This document shows, piece by piece, positions 1,769 through 26,825 of a stretch of DNA of 47,269 bases. The first letter of the stretch is position 1. Every line of letters starts with the position of its first letter. The notes beneath the pieces are model-generated. The model ran no database searches. It saw only the letters and a program-made list of their open reading frames with translations, and was not told the DNA's origin. The translations under genes and the position numbers were made by a program. Origin of the DNA: Treponema sp. (lineage in GTDB: Bacteria; Spirochaetota; Spirochaetia; Treponematales; Breznakiellaceae); NCBI GenBank assembly GCA_009787775.1, contig WQSQ01000007.1:1-47269 (forward strand), given 5' to 3'.

Positions 1769-2083
1769 ATGACAGAATTAAGAAAAATACTTGGATCAAA
1801 TATGAAGGCCTATAGGTCAGAACTCGGTTATTCTCAAGCTAAATTAGCTGAATTGATAGATACAGCAACCAATTACATTGCACAGATAGAAAACGGAAAA
1901 CGGTTTCCAACCGATACTATGCTCGAAAAAATAGCGAATGCTCTTCAAAAGAGAGCATTCGAACTGTTTTCTTTTGAACATTATGAAAACAAAATGGAAG
2001 AAGACTGGCAAACACAGATTTTAATTGATCTTAAGAATTTTATTCATAAACGAATAGCCAAGTTGAAAAAAGAAAAAGCCTGA
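1769..2083 (+). CDS. XRE-family helix-turn-helix regulator
   Basis: A 104-aa protein. Residues about 5-62 form a Cro/CI-type HTH domain: the helices LGSNMKAYRSELGYSQAKLA and then NYIAQIENGKRFPTDTMLEKIANAL carry the classic S-Q-x-x-LA…I-E-N-G-K-R-x-P pattern. The rest is a short charged helical tail ending in Lys-rich sequence, with no sensor domain. It is probably a small DNA-binding repressor or activator. It starts divergently from the frameshifted lipoprotein, about 170 bp away, so that gene or its own promoter is a natural target. It stands alone at the edge of a gene-poor region. Such single XRE genes are often remnants of mobile DNA or toxin-antitoxin modules, but I see no partner gene here. 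Confidence 0.9.
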   Translation: MTELRKILGSNMKAYRSELGYSQAKLAELIDTATNYIAQIENGKRFPTDTMLEKIANALQKRAFELFSFEHYENKMEEDWQTQILIDLKNFIHKRIAKLKKEKA

Positions 2084-2275: not shown

Positions 2276-2390
2276 TGTATGTGTCTAAATGAGAGGCGCT
2301 TAAACCTCAGAAACCCGCGTCAATACCTGGCTGATACAACAGGCAGTTTATGCGCTGTCAGGCGTCTTATTCAGCCTTTGACTAGGTTCA

Positions 2391-2545
2391 TCATTCAGCC
2401 TATAGTAAGCTGTCACTATAGCCTAAAGTGATATTCAACTATAGTCCATAGTGATAGTTCACTTTAGCCTATAGTGAACATTAACTACAGTCTATAGTGA
2501 TATATTACTATAGACTAAAGTGTAGTTTCACTATGAACTATAGTG
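2391..2545. repeat. Array A: seven 17-bp palindromes on a 23-bp period
   Basis: Units start at 2391, 2414, 2437, 2460, 2483, 2506 and 2529, each exactly 23 bp after the last. Each unit is a degenerate version of CACTATAGnCTATAGTG, separated by 6-nt spacers that are not conserved (agctgt, atattc, atagtt, aacatt, atatat, tagttt). In the first unit the left arm has decayed. Most units are flanked by T on the left and A on the right, so the dyad is really about 19 bp. Array B at 25221-25375 has the same unit, period, number and total length. No known function is recognised. Confidence 0.9.
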
Positions 2546-2847
2546 GTATATAGGTCAAGGCAGGAACTTTGTATCAGAATAACAAGGAACAATGCAAGAA
2601 AATAGAGACTGTTCCAATGCTTCAGTTTTTGGGACAGCTACCATATACTTCACTACCCTAGAATTGAATTGTCATAAGGGTATTTTCCGAAACTAAGCAA
2701 GTTTTGGTAAATGCTCGATCTAATCATTCTTTATAGACAGCTTTCGCAATTCTTAACCGGCGGCTTTTGTGTGAATATTAATCCTTCTTGAAGGGTGCGT
2801 GCGTAAAACTCTTCCAGCGGTCTCGGTGTCATTGACATTGCTTGAAT

Positions 2848-23673: not shown

Positions 23674-25122
23674 ATGGAAGCTATTAAATTAACCGAAGGA
23701 TTATCTTACGATGATGTCCTTCTATTGCCAGGATATTCGGAAATACTGCCGAAAGAATGTAATGTACAGACAACATTATGCAAAGGCATCAATCTGAATG
23801 TCCCGATTATTTCCGCCGCGATGGATACAGTGACAGAAGAGAAACTGTCTATCGCAATCGCACTGGAAGGCGGAACCGGAGTTATTCACCGTAATCTAAA
23901 ACCCGAAGAACAGGCGCGTCAGGTCGCAGGTGTTAAACGTTTTCTCAACTGGATAATCGAATCGCCTGTGACAATCGCGCATAACGCATATGTCAGGGAT
24001 GTACGCCTGTTGGTCGACACATTCGGCGTTTCAGGTTTTCCCGTTGTTGACGCAGACGGCGTATTAATGGGAATTATAACAAACCGCGACCTGCGTTTCT
24101 GCCGCGACGATTCCCTTCCTGTAACGGATGTAATGATAAGCGATGTTATTACCGCGGCAGGCGACATAACAGTTGAAAGAGCAAGTGAGATATTCAAGAA
24201 AAACAGGATAGAAAAGCTTCCTGTTGTGGACAGTGAAAGAAAACTTACTGGTCTTATCACTGTAACTGATATGGAAAAGAATCATAGCTTTCCCAACGCA
24301 GCAGTAGATAAAAACGGAAGACTCATTGTCGGAGCGGCAATCTCTCCGCAGGATTATAAAATAAGAATGCCGCTCCTTAAGAAAGCAAAAGTCGATTATG
24401 TAGTTCTTGATACAGCTCACGGCGATTCAAAAAATGTAATGGAAGCCGTTTCCCAGATTAAGAAAGAATATAAAATCCCAGTTATCGGAGGAAATGTCGC
24501 AACCAAAGAGGGGACAAGAAAATTGATTGATTCCGGCGCAGACGCAATAAAGGTCGGTATAGGGCCGGGTTCAATATGCACAACCCGCATAATCGCCGGA
24601 ATAGGGGTTCCCCAGTTTACCGCCGTAATGGATTGCGCCGAAGAGGCAGTCAAATCGAAAATACCGGTTATTGCCGACGGAGGCATAAAGTTTTCAGGCG
24701 ATATTACAAAGGCTATAGGAGCAGGCGCCAGCGTTGTAATGATAGGAAACCTTTTTGCGGGATTAAAGGAGTCTCCGGGAAGCGAAATTATTTATGACGG
24801 AAGAATATACAAGGAATACCGCGGGATGGGAAGCATGGGCGCGATAGCGGACGGAGCGGGCGACCGCTATCAAATCGGCAAGGACGAAGAGCCTGTCCCT
24901 GAAGGCATTGAAGGCAGGGTTCCTTATAAAGGCGAACTTAAGTTTTTCTTAAACCAGCTTGTAGCCGGCCTTAGGAAGGGTATGGGCTACTGCGGCTGCA
25001 AAAGCATAGCAGAGCTTAATAATTACCGCAAGTTTGTAAAAATTACCGCCGCCGGCCTCCGCGAAAGCCATCCTCATGATGTGCAGATAACGCAGGAAGC
25101 CCCGAACTATTCGCGGTTATAA
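23674..25122 (+). CDS. guaB: IMP dehydrogenase
   Basis: A 482-aa enzyme that oxidises IMP to XMP with NAD, the committed step to GMP. The catalytic loop GPGSICTTR places the active-site Cys near residue 300. The barrel opens with GLSYDDVLLLPG and includes ISAAMDTVTE. Two CBS domains (about residues 92-205) are inserted after the first barrel strands (EARQVAGVKRF-type linker, then GVLMGIITNRDLRF and KLTGLITVTDMEK). The C-terminal flap motif EYRGMGSMGA is present. Length is typical. No Shine-Dalgarno precedes the start. It is the last plus-strand gene before palindrome array B. Confidence 0.97.
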   Translation: MEAIKLTEGLSYDDVLLLPGYSEILPKECNVQTTLCKGINLNVPIISAAMDTVTEEKLSIAIALEGGTGVIHRNLKPEEQARQVAGVKRFLNWIIESPVTIAHNAYVRDVRLLVDTFGVSGFPVVDADGVLMGIITNRDLRFCRDDSLPVTDVMISDVITAAGDITVERASEIFKKNRIEKLPVVDSERKLTGLITVTDMEKNHSFPNAAVDKNGRLIVGAAISPQDYKIRMPLLKKAKVDYVVLDTAHGDSKNVMEAVSQIKKEYKIPVIGGNVATKEGTRKLIDSGADAIKVGIGPGSICTTRIIAGIGVPQFTAVMDCAEEAVKSKIPVIADGGIKFSGDITKAIGAGASVVMIGNLFAGLKESPGSEIIYDGRIYKEYRGMGSMGAIADGAGDRYQIGKDEEPVPEGIEGRVPYKGELKFFLNQLVAGLRKGMGYCGCKSIAELNNYRKFVKITAAGLRESHPHDVQITQEAPNYSRL

Positions 25123-25220
25123 ACAGAGGGTCAGTAGTCATTCATGAGTACGATTCTTTCCCGATACAGAAATCCGTTCCAGGGTATACAAGCGCCTTGA
25201 TCCAGCCTTGAATACCATGC

Positions 25221-25375
25221 CGCTATAGTCTATAGTGATACCTCACTACAGACTGTAGTGAATAGCCACTATAGACTATAGTGAATGGCCACTATAGACT
25301 GTAGTGATTTATCACTATAGACTGAAGTGAATAATCACTATAGCCTATAGTGATATCTCACTTTAGGCTATAGTG
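25221..25375. repeat. Array B: seven 17-bp palindromes on a 23-bp period
   Basis: Units start at 25221, 25244, 25267, 25290, 25313, 25336 and 25359, all exactly 23 bp apart. The unit at 25267 is the perfect palindrome CACTATAGaCTATAGTG. The unit at 25244, CACTACAGaCTGTAGTG, carries matched changes in both arms and stays perfectly symmetrical. The 6-nt spacers vary (atacct, aatagc, aatggc, atttat, aataat, atatct) but nearly always start with A and often end with T. The last unit is the exact reverse complement of array A's second unit. It lies between guaB and the GH4 gene. Confidence 0.93.
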
Positions 25376-25431
25376 GCAGCATCGTCTTTGCTGTATTTAA
25401 ACCTTTTTCCTTCCTTGCATGCTAGAATAAA

Positions 25432-25486
25432 TAGAGTTCTGTAAAATTCGGTTTCCAGTATGACAGACTGCGTTAATTCCTTACTG
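25432..25486 (+). mobile_element. Diverged left half of the MITE-like element
   Basis: These 55 bp align without gaps to 19898-19952 of the intact element with about 10 mismatches, covering the left terminal repeat, the GGTTTCCA block and the first arm of the internal stem. The second arm and right end are missing. It ends 16 bp before the GH4 start codon, so the remnant now forms the gene's 5' region. Confidence 0.65.
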
Positions 25487-25502
25487 GAGAACAGAGGTAT
25501 CC

Positions 25503-26825
25503 ATGCTGAAAATTACCTTTCTTGGAGCTGGAAGTACGGTTTTTGCCCGCAGTGTGCTGGGCGATTGTATGTCAAGTGAGGCGCTAAAGGGGTGCGAGAT
25601 TGCCCTTTATGACATTGATGCCCGGCGTCTTAAGGAAAGCGGGAAGATTGTATCTGCGATAAACAAAGGAAAAGGTGATTACTCAAAGATATCATGTTAC
25701 GGGGGAGTTGAAAACCTTGAAAAAGCACTCGCGGGCGCTTCTTTCGCTGTGAACGCTGTACAGGTCGGAGGTTATGATCCTGCGACAATCGCTGATTTTG
25801 AGATTCCAAAGAAATACGGGCTGCGTCAGACAATCGGAGATACTCTCGGGATAGGCGGTATAATGCGCGCACTGCGGACGATACCTGTAATGGAAACATT
25901 CGCGCGCGCGGTTGAAAAAGTATGCCCCGATGCGTGGCTGTTAAATTATACAAACCCCATGTCGATGCTGACAGGCTACATGCAAAGATACACAGGTGTA
26001 AAAACGGTCGGTCTTTGCCACAGTGTGCAGGGATGCTCGTACTGGCTTTTAAAAGAGCTTGGCATGGAAGATAAACTTGACGGGAGAAAGGAATTAATAG
26101 CGGGTATTAATCACATGGGATGGCTTTTGGATATCCGCGATAAGGATAATAATGATCTGTACCCTGAAATTAAAAGAAGAGCAAAAGAAAAGAATACGCG
26201 CGAAAAACACCGGGATATGGTACGCTATGATTACATTGACAAGCTGGGTTTCTATTGCACAGAATCCAGCGAGCATAACGCAGAATACAATCCTTTTTAT
26301 ATAAAAGCCAAATACCCGCAGCTGATAAATGATTTTAACATTCCGCTTGATGAGTATCCGCGCCGCTGCATTGAACAGATAGAAGGATGGAAAACCGAAT
26401 ATGAAAATCTTGTTAAATCCGATACTCTGGAACATAAAAGATCGCAGGAATACGCTTCTTACATTATGGAATCAATCGTGACAGGCGCGCCTTATAAAAT
26501 CGGCGGAAATGTTCTGAATACAGGCGGCAGCATAGATAACCTTCCTCACGAAGCGTGCGTTGAAGTCCCCTGTCTTGTTGATAATTCAGGTATCAGGGCG
26601 TGCTATACAGGCAAGCTGCCTGTCCAGCTTGCCGCAATGAATATGACGCACATTAATGTTCACTTAATTACACTGGAAGCAGCTGTTACCAAAAAGCGCG
26701 AAAATATCTATCATGCGGCCATGCTTGAGCCTCACACCGCGGCTGAACTCTCTATTGACGATATAAGGAAAATGACAGACGAACTCCTTGAGGCGCATAA
26801 GGTTTGGCTGCCTGAATATAGGTAG
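25503..26825 (+). CDS. GH4 family glycosidase, probably alpha-galactosidase (MelA-like)
   Basis: A 440-aa NAD- and metal-dependent glycoside hydrolase. The N-terminal Rossmann fold has ITFLGAGSTVF. The segment GLCHSVQG (near residue 171) has the Cys and His that bind the metal in MelA-type alpha-galactosidases. INHMGWLLDI (near 200) supplies the second metal His and is also typical. GH4 enzymes cleave by an oxidation-elimination route and need a divalent metal and NAD. CHSVQG favours alpha-galactosidase over 6-phospho-glucosidases; a galacturonidase (LplD-like) is the main alternative. It is preceded by palindrome array B and the MITE remnant, and has an own ribosome site (ACAGAGG). No sugar transporter genes lie beside it. 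Confidence 0.88.
   Translation: MLKITFLGAGSTVFARSVLGDCMSSEALKGCEIALYDIDARRLKESGKIVSAINKGKGDYSKISCYGGVENLEKALAGASFAVNAVQVGGYDPATIADFEIPKKYGLRQTIGDTLGIGGIMRALRTIPVMETFARAVEKVCPDAWLLNYTNPMSMLTGYMQRYTGVKTVGLCHSVQGCSYWLLKELGMEDKLDGRKELIAGINHMGWLLDIRDKDNNDLYPEIKRRAKEKNTREKHRDMVRYDYIDKLGFYCTESSEHNAEYNPFYIKAKYPQLINDFNIPLDEYPRRCIEQIEGWKTEYENLVKSDTLEHKRSQEYASYIMESIVTGAPYKIGGNVLNTGGSIDNLPHEACVEVPCLVDNSGIRACYTGKLPVQLAAMNMTHINVHLITLEAAVTKKRENIYHAAMLEPHTAAELSIDDIRKMTDELLEAHKVWLPEYR

Follow-up and report, generated by a model that had tools for sequence, protein, structure and literature searches.

Introduction

BrickBuilt of Porphyromonas gingivalis has been described as a minisatellite-containing MITE in which a leader is followed by 23-nt repeats and a tail (PMC4596501). 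According to the available part of that account, a 2.35-Mb genome holds 19 copies, always intergenic and of restricted host range; the repeat number varies, some copies have no leader or no tail, and there are 12-nt terminal inverted repeats like those of the IS5 family as well as some putative target duplications. Promoter fusions of BrickBuilt have been made in laboratory E. coli. The BOX element of Streptococcus pneumoniae consists of boxA, variable tandem boxB and boxC, is species-limited, and has been proposed to be mobilised in trans (PMC3049150, available part). A further kind comprises the constant-size repeats of Subirana and Messeguer, which are non-coding, species-specific tandem repeats of 20–23 nt with several families per genome (PMC8161180, PMC6749651, available parts). 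They are called enigmatic and without obvious function there, and a protein that polymerises on the repeat DNA is proposed (PMC8161180). For the families of Leptospira, the accessible part of PMC6749651 gives a second number, which we read as the repeat length, of 46, 46, 37 and 69. The values 46 and 69 are multiples of 23, and 37 is not. Reference 3 of PMC8161180 is probably 'Unique features of tandem repeats in bacteria' (J Bacteriol 2020). In the literature on palindromic or tandem repeats of Treponema we found no description of the arrays reported here.

These arrays lie in a 2.04-Mb draft genome of a Treponema species, 71% complete and in 109 contigs, of which the window (the whole 47,269-nt stretch of DNA that was analysed) is contig 7. 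By analogy of build, the element that carries them appears to fit the known kind of BrickBuilt, BOX and the constant-size repeats. It resembles BrickBuilt in having a leader, 23-nt repeats and a tail, dispersed intergenic copies and a restricted range, the comparison being one of build and not of sequence. Unlike BrickBuilt, it has no recognised terminal inverted repeats or target duplications, and for the BrickBuilt repeats the available text mentions dyad symmetry and does not describe strict palindromes (PMC4596501). BOX, likewise compared by build, is alike in being modular. Its copy number is higher than that of the Treponema element, and we know of no 23-bp palindrome ladder in BOX. It also differs in having boxA and boxC modules of ~50 nt, shown to be transcribed (PMC3049150, available part). 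The Treponema arrays have the properties of constant-size satellites, being non-coding, constant at 23 bp and species-specific, with several families in the genome. Unlike the constant-size repeats of Bacillus, for which palindromes go unmentioned in the accessible part of PMC8161180, the Treponema unit is a dyad, and it sits in an element with shared flanks.

Results

Arrays A and B in the window

The locus under study, array B, and its counterpart, array A, comprise the following features.

25221..25375, + strand: array B, a ladder of seven dyad units, each of 17 bp, with a step of 23 bp
25197..25220, + strand: left flank X of array B in eroded form (likeness by eye), with a TTG kept at −13 from the first unit
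25376..25398, + strand: stretch in which a degenerate last unit, or the start of right flank Y, of array B would be expected (likeness to Y by eye)
2391..2545, − strand: array A, element as in array B in opposite orientation, with six good units and a degenerate one at 2391–2407
2546..2604, − strand: left flank X of the element that holds array A, 93% identical to the X query
2330..2411, − strand: right flank Y of the element that holds array A, 80% identical to the Y query, taking in the degenerate terminal unit

The units of array B start at 25221, 25244, 25267, 25290, 25313, 25336 and 25359, and all six steps are 23 bp, in agreement with the seven units in 155 bp given by the initial annotation. 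The consensus unit, CACTATAGnCTATAGTG, is a 17-bp palindrome, and the 6-nt spacers are variable and largely A/T. Three further observations of that annotation were reproduced: unit 2 (CACTACAGACTGTAGTG) is a perfect dyad, the last unit (CACTTTAGGCTATAGTG) is the exact reverse complement of the second unit of array A (at 2414), and the spacers of the two arrays are unlike. Array A has the opposite orientation, so its units on the + strand are reverse complements of those of array B. Tandem Repeats Finder picks up both arrays. An identical unit count had also been claimed, and this holds for array B, with seven units; in array A, six units reach 11 or more of 16 consensus letters and the seventh is degenerate and sits within flank Y, so the equality depends on the threshold.

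A family of 23-bp arrays nearly confined to one genome

A similarity search found 24 array places on many contigs of the genome; arrays A and B are two of these, and the other 22 were taken with their flanks. One place (L030) has fewer than three good units, and the counts that follow use the remaining 23. All 124 steps in these arrays are 23 bp, a pitch that the method did not impose. The number of units, at the threshold of 11 of 16 consensus letters, ranges from 4 to 8 (seven in 11 arrays, six in 6, and eight, five and four in 2 each), and the earlier suggestion of a fixed unit number therefore fails. The array is far beyond chance: sites with up to two mismatches number 126 in the genome against 0 for the reversed pattern, and those with up to three number 140 against 4. 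Because 126 and 137 of these sites, respectively, lie inside arrays, nothing points to operators standing alone.

The family hardly occurs outside this genome. Across 39 genomes of the genus, the 126 units found here compare with 0 or 1 in each of the 38 congeners, and among 195 genomes of the family, with at most three candidates scored per genome, the element was matched in two, this one and one congener with a single pair of units. In four congeners (696,741 bases) a ladder detector found nothing comparable; its hits were two weak ladders of three units, with steps of 22 and 18, and an exact 48-bp repeat that by eye is coding. Searches with blastn gave one 38-base match, to a Pseudomonas plasmid (E 2e-3), among plasmids and no copies among phages; exact patterns gave no copies in viral and genome contigs, collections that may omit records of this genome. 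By guaB, the nearest named relatives are metagenome-assembled Treponema sp. at 84% protein identity and below, whose isolate codes we take to denote termite gut samples.

Multi-site clusters at 24 places on many contigs, with a fixed pitch and no isolated good sites, are what might be expected if the arrays were chromosome-organising or partition-like, that is, dispersed site clusters for a nucleoid or segregation protein, and the protein proposed by Subirana and Messeguer to polymerise on constant-size repeats (PMC8161180, available part) would suit such a role. We nevertheless regard this explanation as quite improbable, since the arrays are almost absent from congeners, unlike conserved partition sites, and have shared flanks, as in a mobile element.

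The arrays are parts of a dispersed element

Alignment of the flanks revealed two distinct ends, X (~64 bp) and Y (~85–119 bp). The element is built of left flank X, the 23-bp units and right flank Y, spans ~250–340 bp and is non-coding; none of the 24 array places lies within a long mechanical ORF, though the short array at L030 is contained in an ORF of 63 aa. A search of the genome placed X at 18 sites (E <= 1.5e-6) and Y at 15 (E <= 3.6e-9), all beside an array, with three weak further rows for X and two for Y. One array (L024) has X at both ends and is adjoined by one of the weak X rows, and at least one copy visible in the alignment (L011) escaped the search with Y. In these searches of the 71%-complete genome, neither X nor Y was found around anything but an array. 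Near-identical copies stand at separate sites (92% over 289 and 302 bp; 93.9% over 330 bp), and these, together with the shared flanks, identify a dispersed element. The view that arrays A and B are not a recent duplication of one another is thus borne out: they are dispersed copies of one element.

Diverged and shortened copies also exist. In array B, L010 and L018 the flanks can hardly be recognised, or not at all, and yet most of the units are near consensus. At the flanks of array B the X and Y searches of the genome gave no match, and a faint resemblance is visible by eye; array B is a copy of the element with eroded flanks. Three other arrays (L013, L015 and L019), each within ~0.7 kb of a contig end, have extra common sequence left of X, to about −164 (−439 for L015 and L019), perhaps a larger duplicated block.

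The element is probably mobile. No terminal inverted repeats were recognised by eye in the aligned copies and no mobilising enzyme gene was found, both in the 71%-complete genome. A scan of 15 copies, in which the element ends were not defined to the base, gave no recognisable target-site duplications, the eight best matches listed falling inside the conserved flanks. A purely selfish minisatellite element, with units that serve copying only (as recognition or structure sites for an enzyme) and do nothing for the host, would account for the near restriction to one species, for the mixed gene orientation and for the diverged and shortened copies, and BrickBuilt, with the same build, has been interpreted as a MITE (PMC4596501, available part). 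We think this rather unlikely, if still a serious contender: array B, L010 and L018 have faded flanks and near-consensus units, which would seem odd if constraint ended with movement.

The dyad core and the pitch are conserved

The reading that we favour, and to which we would give an even chance, is that array B is the core of a diverged, non-autonomous, non-coding interspersed element whose units are kept as protein sites in double-stranded DNA. Over 15 copies, with units 1–6 aligned by index, mean column identity was 0.958 in the ten positions of the dyad core (ACTWYAGNCTRWAGT), 0.742 in the six arm positions that vary, 0.40 at the centre base and 0.553 in the spacers; it was 0.763 in X for the same 15 copies and 0.694 in Y in a 17-copy alignment. 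Both the dyad core and the pitch of 23 bp are thus kept more than the flanks, which fits double-stranded DNA sites better than RNA hairpins. Base preferences over 161 unit positions (almost always A/T and T/C at 5 and 6; A/G at 12; T, A or, in 10 cases, C at 13) look like those of a tolerated binding site, and the units are most likely candidate protein-binding sites in double-stranded DNA. In 15 arrays, resemblance is closer between units of equal index (14.30 of 17 letters) than between other units (13.21), so the shared unit order comes largely from descent. The initial annotation had supposed that symmetry and geometry are selected or that units are copied among arrays; conservation of the dyad core and of the pitch agrees with this, and compensated changes in the arms are not supported.

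No arm covariation within the array B family

That annotation had seen in unit 2 a compensated change, with both arms altered so as to restore symmetry. Among 144 units, an identical non-consensus dinucleotide at positions 5/6 of both arms was seen 5 times, against 9.1 expected by shuffling, and both-arm deviations at these positions 16 times against 23.3 (P 0.009, a value that overstates significance, as do all the shuffle P values, because the copies are related by descent and the units are not independent). For 80 distinct units the corresponding counts were 5 against 5.9 and 14 against 18.4 (P 0.04, read likewise). When any mismatch in the 8-letter arms was counted there was no deficit, with 49 units changed in both arms against 50.4 expected (38 against 40.6 for distinct units). 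Across 16 aligned arrays, paired changes were no more numerous than after shuffling in either the unit register (5 against 5.4) or the spacer register (0 against 3.2), and single cells changed on both sides in the unit register numbered 10 against 8.1, a figure reached by 134 of 500 shuffles. The apparent compensated change in array B is chance, since arm covariation is absent from the family and both-arm changes are fewer than expected.

The same counts bear on the idea that the array is transcribed as a chain of hairpins and acts as a small RNA, mRNA stabiliser or attenuator. For array B, a very strong fold of the transcript is predicted (−83.1 kcal/mol, z −12.7), and the strong fold is found on both strands, but palindromes alone would give it. 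The covariation term of the consensus fold is unfavourable (+0.94), and unit 4 keeps an A-A mismatch and unit 6 a U-U mismatch in 13 of the 16 aligned arrays each. Changes at position 6 and its partner affect the left side alone as often as the right side alone (24 each in 149 units), which counts against RNA because a transcript would allow a G-U pair on one side only. On the covariation counts, we rejected a hairpin RNA selected by pairing for the array B family.

Of the 24 arrays, 21 have a TTG at −13 from the first unit, 17 nt before a hexamer reading TATAGT or similar; array B is one of them, as are five of the six arrays for which the search found no X. This too would be in keeping with a transcribed RNA element. 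In array B the two hexamers form one feature.

25208..25236, + strand: promoter-like TTGAAT-17-TATAGT, made by the flank and the first unit of array B

The fixed position of the TTG is suggestive and could equally be an enzyme's site. Promoter-like matches were no more frequent than in shuffled sequence, either in 25100–25510 (1 found against 1.1) or over the 24 arrays (24 and 30 on the two strands against 23.4 expected per strand), and no Rfam entry matched the window at gathering score. Overall, an RNA element seems improbable to us. As a separate observation, 23 bp is also what separates the starts of −35 and −10 hexamers when their spacer is 17 bp, and the consensus unit of the arrays carries TATAGT on both strands; the match of pitch and hexamer distance may be coincidence.

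Neighbouring genes

Pfam, used on three neighbouring proteins, placed array B between guaB and a GH4 gene, as the initial annotation had it; the names of other neighbouring genes were assigned by eye.

23674..25122, + strand: guaB (IMP dehydrogenase), PF00478 E 1.9e-150, left neighbour of array B, outside the element
25503..26825, + strand: GH4 glycosidase gene, PF02056 E 8.7e-59 and PF11975 E 3.6e-61, right neighbour of array B, outside the element

Control of sugar use had been suggested from this position, and a local operator acting on guaB or the GH4 gene would explain both the placement and the direction of the lone promoter-like match at the array edge, which points to GH4. That single match equals the shuffle expectation, however, and the family stands beside unrelated genes in every relative orientation: by our reading of mechanical ORFs, 5 of 23 arrays lie between convergent genes, and in 12 of 24 cases the element faces the start of a gene. 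Because of these mixed orientations and unrelated neighbours, control of sugar use is not supported, and we judge a local operator highly improbable.

No binding protein for the units was identified. An XRE-type helix-turn-helix gene lies near array A (window 1769–2083, Pfam) and a second small one, recognised by eye, in the left flank of L017, each with its 3' end towards the array; at 2 of 24 loci, such genes are too few to argue from as candidates for the binding protein. Genes for BspA-like leucine-rich repeat proteins adjoin two arrays (L009 and L020), and their repeats of ~23 residues, judged by eye, correspond to a coding period of 69 bp.

A wider class of 23-bp arrays

A ladder detector run on 80 named guaB loci (497,440 bases) returned five ladders, with steps of 23 (L241 and L244), 21, 21 and 44. 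The first 23-bp ladder (L241) consists of a constant AGGCTTA and a 16-nt palindrome, and a pattern of three such tags matched 27 of 195 family genomes, this one included, against none for the reversed control. Members of this class (L241:157-288, L244:6834-7148, L249-L269, L273 and L278-L297) combine a constant (A/G)GGCTTA with a locus-specific, often palindromic 16-nt part. The array B family differs in having no tag, a constant palindrome and variable spacers. Two arrays of the AGGCTTA type are present in this genome (G000:C42:20658-20755, L269, and G000:C51:2387-2507, L273); their unit is CCTTGCCCGTGTACGT, the tag is mostly GGGCTTA, and the sequence is unrelated to the window arrays. Several arrays of the class lie at contig ends, so the true copy number is probably higher.

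At least three of the 42 loci taken from this class duplicate a place already included, and we therefore used 37 distinct consensus units, which are not independent lineages. In these units, a mean of 3.92 of the outer six pairs were complementary, against 2.10 after between-locus shuffling (maximum 2.76 of 2000 shuffles); 12 of the 37 have fewer than four pairs in the tested register, some with a shifted dyad by eye. Judging from these sequences, the class keeps its symmetry as its sequence changes between loci in a compensated way. The covariation that the initial annotation had proposed to look for is thus seen in the wider class of 23-bp arrays and not in the array B family. In two species (L241 and L251) the array follows the 3' end of what by eye is apparently the same gene, and some arrays of this class may be conserved in place.

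The arrays share intergenic palindromes with REP/RAYT systems, and the AGGCTTA class also pairs a constant short tag with a variable palindrome; they are unlike REP in that the constant tag is not GTAG or CGTC and in their regular 23-bp head-to-tail ladders (PMC3733652, available part). No constant GTAG or CGTC end tag occurs in the unit and spacer columns, GTAG being found only within the arms of some variant units, and no tyrosine transposases were recognised by eye among the flanking ORFs.

In a sample of 1,487,232 bases from relatives, which was not chosen by array place and in which two genomes were chosen as tag-rich, 26 of 58 tandem arrays have a period of 20–23; 12 of the 26 have a period of 21 and may be coding, since 21 is a multiple of three. 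Palindromy, assessed by shuffling in the same bases, showed no excess (3 of 27 arrays of period 20–24 at P < 0.05, against 4 of 22 with other periods), and symmetry is therefore shown only for the array B family and the AGGCTTA class. In L298-L316 (genomes G078 and G088; 293 kb sampled), tandem arrays that are unrelated in sequence and have periods of 21, 22 and 23 are frequent.

Discussion

On the reading that we favour, an interspersed element whose units are kept as protein sites, an element of X, 4–8 palindromic 23-bp units and Y would have spread between the genes of this Treponema species, its copies moved in trans by an enzyme. A dimeric DNA-binding protein, which might belong to the host, be the mobilising enzyme itself or regulate that enzyme, would read each dyad in double-stranded DNA and pack side by side at the fixed pitch, and RNA hairpins would be a by-product of the dyads.

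A more general proposal, which we offer tentatively and consider unlikely as it stands, is that the 23-bp ladders of the Treponema family are one class of fixed-pitch site that keeps its pitch and symmetry and whose sequence either drifts by locus and lineage in a compensated way, as in the AGGCTTA class, or is frozen on a mobile element, and that a protein with a 23-bp footprint explains constant-size satellites. To the known kinds of repeat, the present arrays add a conserved dyad core, the absence of arm covariation in the array B family and a covarying AGGCTTA class. Together, the array B family and the AGGCTTA class turn the puzzle of constant size into a question of binding. If the proposal is true, the constant-size 20–23-nt satellites of bacteria would be explained by a dimeric protein that acts cooperatively in binding or copying DNA and has a footprint fixed at 23 bp.
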